Shown here piece by piece: positions 32,932-37,195 of a stretch of DNA of 59,367 bases. Both the position numbers and the translations under genes were made by a program. The stretch spans positions 1-59,367 of the forward strand of contig JALQYJ010000031.1 in the NCBI GenBank assembly GCA_023254175.1, read 5' to 3'. Origin of the DNA: Runella sp. Its GTDB lineage: Bacteria > Bacteroidota > Bacteroidia > Cytophagales > Spirosomataceae. Every line of letters starts with the position of its first letter. The stretch's first letter is position 1. The notes beneath the pieces were generated by a model that did not search any database, had not been told where the DNA came from, and was given only the letters and a program-made list of their open reading frames with translations.

Positions 32932-33522
32932 ATGAAACAATCCATCAATCCTCGTTTCAGTACGTTGTTATGCTTTATTCTTGTCTTGGCACTGATTCGC
33001 ATCATCAACGTAGCCCAACTTTCGCCCGTTGCTAATTTTACGCCACTAGGAGCAATGGGGCTCTTTGCTGGAGCGTATTTTTCGCAGCGTTGGAAAGCCT
33101 TCTTTTTTCCATTGCTCACACTTTTCATTAGCGATATTGTCATCAATAACGTCATCTATGGCGGCAAATACGGCTTTATCTACGGAGGCTGGTACTGGGT
33201 TTATGGCATTTTTGCCTTGATTGTTCTTCTTGGCAATGTACTTCTCAAGAAGGTAAACCTAAAAAACGTAGTCGTTGCTGGAGTAGTAGCAGTACTCACG
33301 CATTGGGTATTGTCAGATTTTACAGTATGGTTAGGTGGCGGTACCGACCTCCGAACACAACTTCCCCTCAGTCACGATTGGGCTGGGTTACAACAAGCTT
33401 TAATGCAAGGTTTCCCTTTTATGCGCAACTTTCTTGCGGGTACGCTCGCATACAGTGCGCTTTTTTTTGGGGGTTTTGAGTTACTCAAGATGCGTTTTCC
33501 ACAACTATCGGTGACCGAATGA
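32932..33522 (+). CDS. DUF6580/ECF-S-like membrane protein under B12 riboswitch control
   Basis: The 196-residue integral membrane protein has about five or six helices. It contains VANFTPLGAMGLFAGAYF near the N-terminus and the glycine/tyrosine-rich YGGKYGFIYGGWYWVYGIFA in the middle, features I associate with the DUF6580 family, a substrate-binding (S) subunit-like group. The riboswitch directly upstream strongly suggests a role in corrinoid or precursor uptake, for example as a vitamin or lower-ligand transporter. No ECF ATPase/T subunits or btu genes are adjacent. Its stop overlaps the ATP-pyrophosphatase gene start (ATGA), which couples the two. Confidence 0.8.
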   Translation: MKQSINPRFSTLLCFILVLALIRIINVAQLSPVANFTPLGAMGLFAGAYFSQRWKAFFFPLLTLFISDIVINNVIYGGKYGFIYGGWYWVYGIFALIVLLGNVLLKKVNLKNVVVAGVVAVLTHWVLSDFTVWLGGGTDLRTQLPLSHDWAGLQQALMQGFPFMRNFLAGTLAYSALFFGGFELLKMRFPQLSVTE

Positions 33523-34364: not shown

Positions 34365-34919
34365 GTGCCAATAAAAAAGCCCGCCACAGGGAAACTTTTA
34401 ATCGCTGAACCCTTCTTAGAAGACACTAATTTTAAGCGGAGTGTAGTGTTTATGTGCCAACATAACGAGCATGGAACGTTTGGGCTAGTTCTTAATCAAC
34501 CCACTAATTTAAAGTTGAACGATGTATTAAGAGAACCTGTTGTCAATAACTTGCCTTTGTATTTAGGAGGCCCCGTTGAGCAAAATACCTTGCATTTTTT
34601 GCATCAACTCTCGTTCATTGAAGACTCTATTCCTGTTGGTGGTAATTGTTTTTGGAGCGGCGATTTTGAGCAAATTGTCAGCCTTCTCAACGTTGGCAAA
34701 ATAACCGAGCAAGATATCCGTTTTTTTATTGGATACTCAGGTTGGTCAACAGGCCAGCTTGAAGATGAGATTAACGAAAAAGCATGGATTATCGCAGATT
34801 CTACCCCCTCTTTTCTGTTTGACACTCCAGCAGACCAGCTTTGGCGATCTGTTTTGAGACAAATGGGCGGCGAGTACCGAGTCAAATCACATTACCCAAT
34901 CGACCCTAGTTTGAATTAG
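34365..34919 (+). CDS. yqgE: YqgE/AlgH family protein
   Basis: From GTG 34365 the product has 184 residues, the usual YqgE length: PIKKPATGKLLIAEPFLEDTNFKRSVVFMCQHNEHGTFGLVLNQPT. Further conserved parts are LYLGGPVEQNTLHFLH and IRFFIGYSGWSTGQLEDEINEKAWI. The family (UPF0301) is of unknown biochemical function; AlgH is linked to regulation in Pseudomonas. The frame is open to an ATG at 34251, but the extra 38 residues are not family-like and contain a promoter box. A PorT-type barrel gene follows after 25 bp. Confidence 0.9.
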   Translation: MPIKKPATGKLLIAEPFLEDTNFKRSVVFMCQHNEHGTFGLVLNQPTNLKLNDVLREPVVNNLPLYLGGPVEQNTLHFLHQLSFIEDSIPVGGNCFWSGDFEQIVSLLNVGKITEQDIRFFIGYSGWSTGQLEDEINEKAWIIADSTPSFLFDTPADQLWRSVLRQMGGEYRVKSHYPIDPSLN

Positions 34920-34944
34920 GAGACTACCTTAATTAACTATCATA

Positions 34945-35532
34945 ATGAATTTGAAACACAAATTATTCCTTTTTTTTGCACTTTTATCTTTCGGTGTTAC
35001 CGCCCAAACCCTCTACATAAAACCTCATTTTGGGGCAAAAGCTGGGATTAATATTGCACATAGCAATTATTCTCCCAACTTTATCTACAGCTTAAAACGG
35101 CAGTCTCACCCTAATTTGGGCGTATTTTTTCGTTACCGTACTCCAGACAAAAAATGGGTTCTTCAACCCGAAGTGCAGCTTTCGGTACGCGGAGGAACGT
35201 TTAAGGGAGAAACACAAGTAGTTCGTAATAACTTCAACTACGGGAGTTTTGTACCCACCGTTGGTTATACCATTACCGAGGGACTCACCTTCGAATTGGC
35301 ACCTGAGTTTAGCTACCTACTTCATAATCCTAATACAATTGTTCCGCTCCGCAAAAACGAATTTAGCTTAGGCTCTGGGCTTCGTTTCGATTTCATGGAC
35401 ATGGCCGAAGATTTTAGCCTAAACCTTCGCTACGTACATGGTTTCACTAATATTTCAAGCACAACTACTGAATCACTGTATAACCGTACCTTGCAAGTAT
35501 CGGTCATTTACAATTTTTACAAGAAAAAATAA
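34945..35532 (+). CDS. PorT-like outer-membrane beta-barrel protein
   Basis: The 195-residue protein has a signal peptide (MNLKHKLFLFFALLSFGVTAQ) and an eight-strand-like barrel with alternating aromatic/polar residues: FGAKAGINIAHSNYSP, PNLGVFFRYR, WVLQPEVQLSVRGG, FVPTVGYTITEGLTFELAPEFSYLL, NLRYVHGFTNI and a terminal LQVSVIYNFYKKK. The GxKAGxN opening is typical of 'PorT family' barrel proteins in Bacteroidota. True PorT of the type IX secretion system is similar in size, so a role in secretion cannot be excluded. The trp leader promoter begins 29 bp after its stop. Confidence 0.83.
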   Translation: MNLKHKLFLFFALLSFGVTAQTLYIKPHFGAKAGINIAHSNYSPNFIYSLKRQSHPNLGVFFRYRTPDKKWVLQPEVQLSVRGGTFKGETQVVRNNFNYGSFVPTVGYTITEGLTFELAPEFSYLLHNPNTIVPLRKNEFSLGSGLRFDFMDMAEDFSLNLRYVHGFTNISSTTTESLYNRTLQVSVIYNFYKKK

Positions 35533-35560
35533 CACCGTTTGACACCTTACAAAATAAAAA

Positions 35561-35591
35561 TTTGGTTTTTTAAAACACGCTTGTACTTTTG
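35561..35591 (+). promoter_or_regulatory. Complete Bacteroidota promoter of the trp leader
   Basis: TTTG at 35561-35564, a 19-bp spacer and TACTTTTG at 35584-35591 match the consensus in both boxes and in distance. With the usual offset, transcription would start at about 35595-35597, on or beside the leader peptide ATG at 35596. Confidence 0.78.
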
Positions 35592-35595
35592 TGAC

Positions 35596-35652
35596 ATGAA
35601 TTTAACTGTAAAAAATATAAGCTGGTGGTGGCGTTCTTCTTGTCCGAGATGA
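35596..35652 (+). CDS. trpL: Tryptophan leader peptide (18 residues, three consecutive Trp)
   Basis: The frame encodes MNLTVKNISWWWRSSCPR and stops with TGA at 35650-35652. The Trp codons are at 35623-35631, just before the first pairing segment of the attenuator. Ribosome stalling here at low charged tRNA-Trp would free segment 2 to form the antiterminator. There is no ribosome-binding site, and the promoter position suggests a leaderless or nearly leaderless mRNA. It is too short for standard gene callers but its placement in front of trpE is decisive. Confidence 0.88.
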   Translation: MNLTVKNISWWWRSSCPR

Positions 35653-35724
35653 ACAGGTAGCACTATGCTCACTTTTTTACCCAAAAAAGCCCGCTGTTCA
35701 TCCAACAGCGGGCTTTTTATTTTT
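35633..35724 (+). promoter_or_regulatory. Transcription attenuator of trpE (alternative hairpins 1:2, 2:3 and 3:4)
   Basis: Segment 1 (35633-35639, GTTCTTC) can pair with segment 2 (35648-35654, GATGAAC) with one mismatch. Segment 2 (35648-35656, GATGAACAG) pairs perfectly with segment 3 (35694-35702, CTGTTCATC) as antiterminator. Segments 3 and 4 form the terminator: a 15-bp perfect stem of 35684-35698 with 35704-35718 followed by TTTATTTTT. Antiterminator and terminator overlap and exclude each other, as in the enterobacterial trp attenuator. Confidence 0.88.
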
Positions 35725-35749
35725 ACGCACATCTAATCTCAAACGATAT

Positions 35750-37195
35750 ATGACAACGACCGACACTACCTTCAAAATCACTACCCAAAGCCGAAAACTA
35801 CTCGGTGATATGCTTACGCCCGTAGGTGTTTACCTCAAACTTCGCGATAAGTTTCCGTACACCGTTATGCTCGAAAGTGCTGAGTATCATGGAATGGAAC
35901 ACGGCTTTAGTGTTATTGCCTGCGACCCAGTTGCTTCATTTGTCATCGACGAAGACATAGTCACTCAAACTTTCCCTGATGGAAGCGAAGAATCTTTTCG
36001 TTTGCCTTTCCGCAAGCAAGCTATGAAAACGCTGCGTGAGTTTATTCAACGTTTTGATGCCCCAAAAAACGAACACCCATTTATCAACGGGGGCTTATTT
36101 GGGCACATTACGTACGATTCGGTAGAGTATTTTGAAGACATTGATATTCAGGACAAAACTCCTGACAATGCCATTCCTCAAATGGTATATCGGATTTATC
36201 GGTTTGTGATTGCTTTCAACCACTTCAAAGACGAAGTGTATCTTTTTGAGCACGATTATGGCGTAACCCGCGACGACGCGAATCATAGTAAGTCGATAGG
36301 TATGGATTTGGACTCGCTCGAGATGATTGTGAAAGCTCCCAAAATGGCAACGTTCCACTTTAAAGCCCAGGAAAGCGAACAGAGCAACGTTACTGATTCC
36401 GAAATGGAGGGTATCATCCAACAGTGCATCAACCACTGCTTGCGCGGCGATGTTTTTCAGATTGTTCCATCGAGAAGATTTAGCAAAAAATTTGAGGGCG
36501 ACGAGTTCAACGTTTACCGTGCTTTGCGTTCGGTCAACCCTTCACCGTACTTGTTTTTCTTCGATTTTGGAGGGTATAAAGTGTTTGGGTCTTCTCCCGA
36601 AAAACAAATTTTTATCAAAAACGGTCACGCCGAAATTCACCCCATTGCTGGTACATTCCGCCGCACAGGTGACGACGAAAAAGACGCCGAACTCGCCCGC
36701 CAATTAGCTGCTGACCCCAAAGAAACGGCTGAGCACGTAATGCTTGTTGACCTCGCACGCAATGACTTGAGTCGTAGCTGCGACGTTGTCAAAGTAGAAA
36801 CGTACAAAGAAGCCCAGTTCTTCTCGCACGTTATTCACCTAGTTTCAAAGGTTACGGGCAAAATGAGCGCAGGTGTCAACCCCCTTCAACTCGTTGCTGA
36901 TACTTTCCCCGCAGGAACACTTTCGGGAGCCCCTAAACACAACGCCATGACCATCATCAACCGCCTCGAACGTACCAATAGAAGCATTTATGGAGGAGCA
37001 CTTGGGCATATTAGTTTCAACGGAGACTTCAACCACTGCATTACGATTCGTACGTTTTTGAGTAAAAACAATACATTATTTTACCAAGCAGGAATGGGGG
37101 TTGTGGCCAAGTCAAACATAGCATCCGAAATGCAAGAAGTAAACAATAAATTGGCTGCACTCCGCAAAGCAATTGAGCTTGCTAATGAATTGTAA
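35750..37195 (+). CDS. trpE: Anthranilate synthase component I
   Basis: The 481-residue product uses chorismate and ammonia (from TrpG) to make anthranilate, the first step of tryptophan synthesis. The N-domain has the Trp feedback motif MLESAEYHG (about 39-47), in place of the common LLES, and the chorismate-binding domain contains DVFQIVPSRRF, PSPYLFFFDFGGYKVFGSSPE, HPIAGTFRRTGDDEKD and FPAGTLSGAPKHNAM. The Trp-binding motif and the attenuator separate it from PabB. The component II gene (trpG), usually next, is missing: a truncated secreted-protein remnant lies downstream instead. Confidence 0.93.
   Translation: MTTTDTTFKITTQSRKLLGDMLTPVGVYLKLRDKFPYTVMLESAEYHGMEHGFSVIACDPVASFVIDEDIVTQTFPDGSEESFRLPFRKQAMKTLREFIQRFDAPKNEHPFINGGLFGHITYDSVEYFEDIDIQDKTPDNAIPQMVYRIYRFVIAFNHFKDEVYLFEHDYGVTRDDANHSKSIGMDLDSLEMIVKAPKMATFHFKAQESEQSNVTDSEMEGIIQQCINHCLRGDVFQIVPSRRFSKKFEGDEFNVYRALRSVNPSPYLFFFDFGGYKVFGSSPEKQIFIKNGHAEIHPIAGTFRRTGDDEKDAELARQLAADPKETAEHVMLVDLARNDLSRSCDVVKVETYKEAQFFSHVIHLVSKVTGKMSAGVNPLQLVADTFPAGTLSGAPKHNAMTIINRLERTNRSIYGGALGHISFNGDFNHCITIRTFLSKNNTLFYQAGMGVVAKSNIASEMQEVNNKLAALRKAIELANEL

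Follow-up and report, generated by a model that had tools for sequence, protein, structure and literature searches.

Does trpE of this Runella sp. lie behind a tryptophan attenuator, and does the mRNA that encodes its leader peptide begin directly on the start codon? The window, i.e. the whole stretch of 59,367 nucleotides analysed here, was the subject of an earlier note, which described an 18-residue frame with three consecutive Trp codons and mutually exclusive helices in front of trpE, and which raised the possibility of a leaderless start. We consider it very likely, from sequence and comparison, that trpE is controlled by a ribosome-mediated transcription attenuator whose leader-peptide mRNA is leaderless. 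Graded separately on the same grounds, ribosome-mediated attenuation of trpE appears strongly supported and the leaderless start of its leader mRNA appears well supported.

The leader frame and its helices

The frame and the alternative helices were borne out at all of the positions that had been given for them. The elements between the leader start codon and the end of trpE are:

35596-35652, + strand, leader peptide frame MNLTVKNISWWWRSSCPR, 18 codons, ATG at 35596, stop codon TGA at 35650-35652
35623-35631, + strand, three Trp codons (codons 10-12), read from the sequence; two of the three aligned codons are invariant across 34 leaders
35633-35641, + strand, strand 1 of the 1:2 hairpin, from the fold of 35632-35722, directly 3′ of the Trp codons
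35646-35654, + strand, strand 2 of the 1:2 hairpin, from the same fold, overlapping the antiterminator 5′ strand
35648-35656, + strand, antiterminator 5′ strand GATGAACAG, exact complement of CTGTTCATC, containing the stop codon
35694-35702, + strand, antiterminator 3′ strand CTGTTCATC, within the terminator 5′ arm and loop
35684-35718, + strand, intrinsic terminator from the terminator scan, 15 pairs followed by ATTTTT
35750-37195, + strand, trpE, 481 codons, anthranilate synthase component I, ATG at 35750

The frame at 35750-37195 we take, by eye, to be trpE. In a genome contig search its product matched loci of R. defluvii and R. limosa best, at 97% identity, and no further trp genes were recognised by eye just 3′ of it within the window. 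Two details of the arrangement are added here to those of the earlier note: the UGA stop codon of the leader falls within the antiterminator 5′ strand, and a predicted 1:2 hairpin would mask that same strand.

Folding of 35632-35722 gave a z of -6.4 against dinucleotide shuffles, none of 200 being as good. When the terminator 3′ arm was left out, the segment 35640-35705 adopted the antiterminator fold (z -3.1, 2 of 200 shuffles as good), and the window's own antiterminator (locus L001) reached p 0.005 against shuffled segments. In 200 Markov shuffles of the window, short ATG frames with TGGTGGTGG averaged 0.06 per shuffle; in none of the 200 did such a frame have a -7 box exactly 4 nt 5′ of its ATG, and in none was it joined to a perfect terminator. 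The real window holds two short ATG frames with TGGTGGTGG, one of them with the box and one with the terminator.

At the gathering threshold, Rfam returned for the window solely a cobalamin riboswitch away from the leader (RF00174, 32630-32871, + strand, 95 bits, 5′ of a frame at 32932). The Trp_leader model RF00513 aligned weakly over 35620-35721, scoring 27.5 bits against a gathering cut-off of 41. The element of the window would work like RF00513, yet is no member of that model.

Conservation and compensatory pairing in relatives

The earlier note had proposed that relatives be checked for the Trp codons and the pairing. Both are conserved, the latter with compensatory changes. In the family of Runella (code f1, which we take to be Spirosomaceae), 101 genomes were searched, 99 had a TrpE match and the upstream regions of 87 were examined. 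All 87 carry a frame with two or three consecutive Trp codons (WW or WWW) 5′ of trpE and 86 have a terminator call, while a WW frame turned up in 69 of 1740 shuffled upstream regions. Named genomes supplied 80 loci, of which 79 extended far enough upstream; the frame is present in all 79 and the terminator call in 77. A phylum-wide search gave matches in 170 of 198 genomes, and the 28 further loci used were the best-scoring ones, which biases this sample to near kin; a WW (or WLW) frame is present in all 28 and a terminator was called in 27, although the frame of one (L179) may be due to chance. Twenty distant relatives were picked by hand at 35-40% TrpE identity and scored for frames alone: one or more short WW or W.W frames are present in 14 and none in six, and one frame among the 14 (L297, W.W only and far upstream) looks like chance. 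From the frame counts in the family, phylum and distant samples, the trp leader looks old in the phylum, though not universal.

Individual leaders depart from the common form. L011, L100, L111 and L179, the four rows of the tree that received no leader call, failed the terminator filter, and each of them has a short WW (or WLW) frame; L013 has no ATG frame and by eye starts with GTG. The Trp run is preceded by 9-11 codons in all 22 leaderless family leaders described below, and by 8-10 codons in 53 of 63 leadered ones, with seven codons in three and two codons in seven others, where an inner ATG was taken.

Pairing was followed in an alignment of 34 leaders from 14 genera, with Dyadobacter, Larkinella, g13 and genera with TrpE below ~60% identity left out. 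Within Runella, GATGAACAG/CTGTTCATC is replaced by GATGAGCAA/TTGCTCATC, a compensatory exchange. Over the 34 sequences, 93.7% of the antiterminator cells are paired and 22 are changed on both sides; for the terminator (11 aligned pairs) these values are 99.2% and 73, and for the 1:2 hairpin 69% and 24, with two-sided changes in six of its eight pairs. In cells paired, two-sided cells and covariation score, all three helices exceeded every one of 500 shuffles and also all slid registers, in a shuffle test that is inflated by relatedness. Pairs with a two-sided change were as numerous in 61 of the 500 shuffles for the antiterminator, 29 for the terminator and 4 for the 1:2 hairpin; pair types were as numerous in 84, 0 and 38 respectively. 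For the antiterminator, two of five covariation measures (two-sided pairs and pair types) thus fail to beat the shuffles. The 1:2 hairpin fails in the register of the window in 9 of the 34 rows, which come from two groups of genera. When each of the 193 loci of all sets was scored on its own, the antiterminator surpassed its shuffled counterparts in 108 at p ≤ 0.05 and in 59 at p ≤ 0.01. Taken singly, many Dyadobacter loci and the majority of the phylum sample fall short of significance, and the antiterminator of L010 is weak (p 0.10). The antiterminator strand overlaps the stop codon in 85 of the 193 loci.

These data bear on two readings that dispense with a translated leader. The hairpin could be a plain terminator of the upstream gene, with the Trp-rich frame there by chance, and a strong hairpin does stand behind a gene (34945-35532) that runs in the direction of trpE. 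Chance would have to account, however, for Trp frames in 87 of 87 family genomes as against 69 of 1740 shuffled regions, and for the covariation of the antiterminator; moreover, the leaders persist under a different upstream context, e.g. rRNA or tRNA-Pro. We therefore regard this reading as very improbable, and give still less credence to the sensing of tryptophan by a TRAP-like protein, a T-box or an aptamer with no ribosome involved. Such a sensor would fit a terminator/antiterminator switch 5′ of trpE, but no T-box is among the 34 Rfam matches up to E = 10 in 35500-35800, and the one match at the gathering threshold is the cobalamin riboswitch elsewhere. Relatives, moreover, keep the tandem Trp codons and keep them in the same frame relation to the helices, for which translation is the best explanation.

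Several observations concern the surroundings of the attenuator. In Dyadobacter, Larkinella and two other genera (L042, L044, L059, L091, L124 and L151), the attenuator and trpE lie shortly 3′ of the end of an rRNA operon; the 23S end and/or 5S was found upstream of trpE in six of ten loci tested. An rRNA operon end at this place would explain why many draft contigs start ~370-760 nt before trpE. No rRNA match was obtained in the Runella window. A tRNA-Pro (cgg) gene is located 5′ of the trp attenuator in L089, L091, L151 and L155, following the 5S gene in L091 and L151; that of L155 is on the minus strand of a reverse-stored locus, i.e. in the direction of trpE. In L011, visual inspection had suggested a tRNA, which could not be confirmed. 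In g28 (L166, L168 and L169), the attenuator is ~530-600 nt 5′ of trpE with a gene-like stretch between, and may control two genes. In L027, 25-nt units (by eye, GGATCCGCTCAGCCACCGATATGTC) are repeated in tandem between attenuator and trpE. Finally, the motif CTATG, possibly a pause site, occurs between the antiterminator strand and the terminator (35657-35683 in the window, and in relatives) in 19 of 75 distinct spacers, compared with a mean of 2.5 and a maximum of 7 in shuffled spacers, with relatedness left in.

The promoter box and the predicted 5′ end

Three elements bear on the 5′ end of the leader mRNA:

35561-35564, + strand, -33-like element TTTG, read from the sequence, with a 19-nt spacer to the -7 box
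35584-35591, + strand, -7 box TACTTTTG of the Bacteroidota primary sigma factor (consensus TAnnTTTG), followed by TGAC and the ATG at 35596
35596, + strand, predicted +1, the A of the leader ATG, placed from a box at -12 to -5

In mapping studies, the TAnnTTTG box of Flavobacterium psychrophilum is located at -12 to -5 (PMC9723704), and that of F. johnsoniae extends from T-12 to G-5, spacings of 4 or 5 nt from box to transcription start being accepted for probable promoters (PMC6847099). With the box at -12 to -5, as in these flavobacteria, the 4-nt gap in the window would put the +1 on the A of the leader AUG; a spacing of 5 nt would place the start on the U, so the leaderless +1 stays a prediction. 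TACTTTTG also matches the refined consensus TAHHTTTG reported for F. johnsoniae, whose promoters have a -33 motif far less evident than the -7 box (PMC6847099). TTTGG or TTTTG at a spacer of 18-19 nt is found in many, not all, of the leaderless relatives. The leaderless start considered possible before thus gains support from the published start positions of TAnnTTTG promoters and from a box-ATG gap that is kept at exactly 4 nt.

Leaderless mRNAs are a minority in the Bacteroidota that have been mapped, making up 5.5% of the mRNAs examined in F. psychrophilum (PMC9723704). For B. thetaiotaomicron, ~3.7% of 5′ UTRs are shorter than 10 nt. Among the window's 41 larger ORFs, not one has the box at 0-16 nt. 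In 400 kb of another Runella genome (272 ORFs), the box precedes the ATG by 4, 5 and 6 nt in four, two and two cases; the same scan gave one case at 0-3 nt, none at 7-9 nt, 36 at 10-40 nt and 49 at 41-100 nt. The eight cases at 4-6 nt seem to form a small separate peak, suggestive of a small leaderless class in Runella.

Box, four nucleotides and ATG follow one another (last box base G or A) in 22 of the 87 family genomes, representing nine genera: every examined genome of g1 (Runella, 7), g7 (1), g8 (1), g15 (1), g20 (3), g22 (1), g23 (6), g34 (1) and g35 (1), and of no other genus. Counted in these 22 are L115, L125 and L135, with TAnnTTTA instead of TTTG. Over all sets, 33 loci with 22 distinct leaders have the 4-nt gap, including L110 (TACATTTA, 4 nt), which is doubtful as a relaxed-pattern match outside the leaderless clades. 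With L110 excluded, the tetranucleotide that separates the box from the ATG exists in 11 versions, and the N-terminal residues of the peptides differ as well. L121 and L128 were not counted as leaderless; their box is 3 nt before a longer in-frame ATG/GTG start, besides the conserved inner ATG. In neighbouring groups the box is mostly 17-42 nt before the ATG, L012 having also an alternative ATG at 9 nt. Three rows of the family f7 (probably Flavobacteriaceae) have a 5-nt gap (SH-aLRT 98), and a few other phylum-sample rows have gaps of 6-10 nt. No box was found in 29 of the 158 classified rows, including most of Larkinella and Hymenobacter.

The 158 rows were reduced to 117 for a TrpE tree, leaving out identical proteins and four-fifths of rows L042-L081 (mostly Dyadobacter). 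One leaderless clade unites g8, g7 and Runella (13 rows, SH-aLRT 100) and another g23, g35, g15, g22, g34 and g20 (13 rows, SH-aLRT 86). In the reduced tree, 26 of 99 rows are leaderless, with at least three state changes, and a single clade was rejected (p-AU 0.001), in a test from which 17 long-branch rows were removed and before which the groups had been seen.

Other amino acid leaders of Runella were compared in eight genomes. A his leader with a GTG start, HHH to HHHHH and a box 24 nt 5′ of the GTG was found in five of eight his loci (L202, L204-L207) and not in the other three. A leu leader, an LLL frame with a terminator-like hairpin behind it close to a LeuA-like gene, was found in four of seven leu loci (L210-L213), with the box 40-41 nt before the ATG, and not in the other three. 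No credible leader was seen at the homoserine dehydrogenase (thr) and short HMGL-like loci of Runella. Frames of leuA2 with a box at 3 nt were discounted, as their position is beyond the start of the matched coding region. In Runella, therefore, the trp leader appears leaderless, while the other leaders found (his and leu) appear leadered. The source genome (G000) measures 4.85 Mb at 99.9% completeness; 11 of 12 other listed Runella genomes have 6-8 Mb, and G300, with 4.3 Mb, is also small.

The Trp attenuator could be real and its working transcript nevertheless have a normal 5′ UTR, made from an upstream promoter or by read-through, with the box minor or unused. The upstream gene (34945-35532) is co-directional, and a scan of 34500-36500 called no + strand terminator between 35532 and 35684, so that read-through transcripts could have a long 5′ end; most Bacteroidota mRNAs are, besides, leadered. 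What we would not expect of an unused box is that TAnnTTTG/A should keep a distance of exactly 4 nt to the ATG in nine genera and 22 of the 87 family genomes, with flanks and the four intervening bases varying, and we consider a normal 5′ UTR unlikely. We also think it improbable, to about the same degree, that besides attenuation in cis the terminated leader RNA persists as a stable leaderless mini-mRNA or sRNA and has a function in trans, through the RNA itself or its peptide, in the manner of rnTrpL/peTrpL of Sinorhizobium meliloti. This role would suit a predicted start on the AUG, release by termination and a trpE that stands alone in the window, but the peptide varies between genera outside the Trp run, and the 1:2 helix may dictate which residues follow WWW.

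A proposed mechanism and its known counterparts

Sequence and comparison show the elements themselves, their conservation and the compensatory changes; the +1, leaderless initiation, stalling and a response to tryptophan we infer. In the attenuator as we picture it, RNA polymerase would start at 35596, the A of the leader start codon; a ribosome would initiate at this 5′-terminal AUG and translate the 18 codons. If Trp-tRNA is scarce, the ribosome would stall at 35623-35631 and cover strand 1 (35633-35641); 35648-35656, being free, would then pair with the terminator 5′ arm, and trpE would be transcribed. If Trp-tRNA is plentiful, the ribosome at the UGA would cover 35648-35656, the terminator would form and a leader RNA of ~125 nt would be released. 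Without translation, the 1:2 hairpin would also favour termination. The coverage of strand 1 and of the antiterminator strand is reasoned from the footprint of a ribosome.

A Trp leader-peptide attenuator would accordingly guard trpE across the family and beyond, in a phylum without Shine-Dalgarno use, and its predicted start without a 5′ UTR is kept exactly in every examined genome of nine genera. The sister genera with the box mostly 17-42 nt upstream, and the leadered his and leu leaders of Runella, provide a natural matched set that could serve to test the effect of leaderless initiation on ribosome-polymerase coupling. More tentatively, and with considerable doubt, we suggest that starting without a 5′ UTR is a working part of the device and that leaderless Trp leaders were separately selected at least twice in the family, with a near-leaderless case (5-nt gap) in another family of the class and in parallel with Streptomyces and Sinorhizobium. 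If this is true, the ribosome would load once the 5′ end emerges, fixing the ribosome-polymerase timing that attenuation requires, and trpE would be tied to the supply of ribosomes competent in leaderless initiation.

The trpL leader of Escherichia coli has tandem Trp codons, 1:2, 2:3 and 3:4 helices and a stop codon near strand 2, and the Runella leader resembles it in the Trp codons, the place of the stop codon, the 2:3 and 3:4 helices and a predicted 1:2 hairpin. In E. coli, trpL is preceded by a 5′ UTR that includes a Shine-Dalgarno site, and a full trp operon follows it. The Runella leader mRNA differs in its predicted leaderless start and in an RF00513 score below the family cut-off. Closer in phylum and promoter type are the leader-peptide attenuators of F. 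psychrophilum, where the authors see strong clues to such attenuation before amino acid operons; in its main text that paper has no mention of 'tryptophan', and leaderless leader frames are not described in the text available (PMC9723704). The earlier note had also made a point of attenuation that works without a ribosome-binding site. Given that Bacteroidia ribosomes fail at Shine-Dalgarno recognition (PMC9976891), this is nothing special here, and an SD-like 4-mer within 20 nt 5′ of the ATG is absent in 181 of 190 leader frames (all loci, leaderless included).

Nor is the leaderless design, which had been taken for the unusual part, without precedent, as it is already stated for two Trp leaders. 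In Streptomyces lividans, trpL1 encodes 18 residues with WWW before a monocistronic trpE and is transcribed leaderless, like several other leaders (PMC8079986). The likeness to Runella extends to Rho-independent termination; unlike Runella, S. lividans belongs to the Actinobacteria and uses a promoter with a TAnnnT -10 element (PMC8079986). In S. meliloti, the 5′ end of rnTrpL coincides with the ATG of trpL, trpE(G) is located apart from the other trp operons, and the leader forms mutually exclusive structures, all features that Runella shares or is predicted to share; the S. meliloti leader differs in its 14 amino acids and in the trans functions reported for its RNA and peptide (PMC7298713). 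Searches of the open-access literature, judged by titles, abstracts and text passages, turned up no report of a leaderless Trp leader in Bacteroidota. The working principle was thus already known; what Runella and its relatives add is the phylum, a predicted zero-length 5′ end that is conserved exactly, and the recurrence of that end in separate clades, and the leaderless Trp leader of Runella probably had an origin separate from those of the known leaderless leaders.
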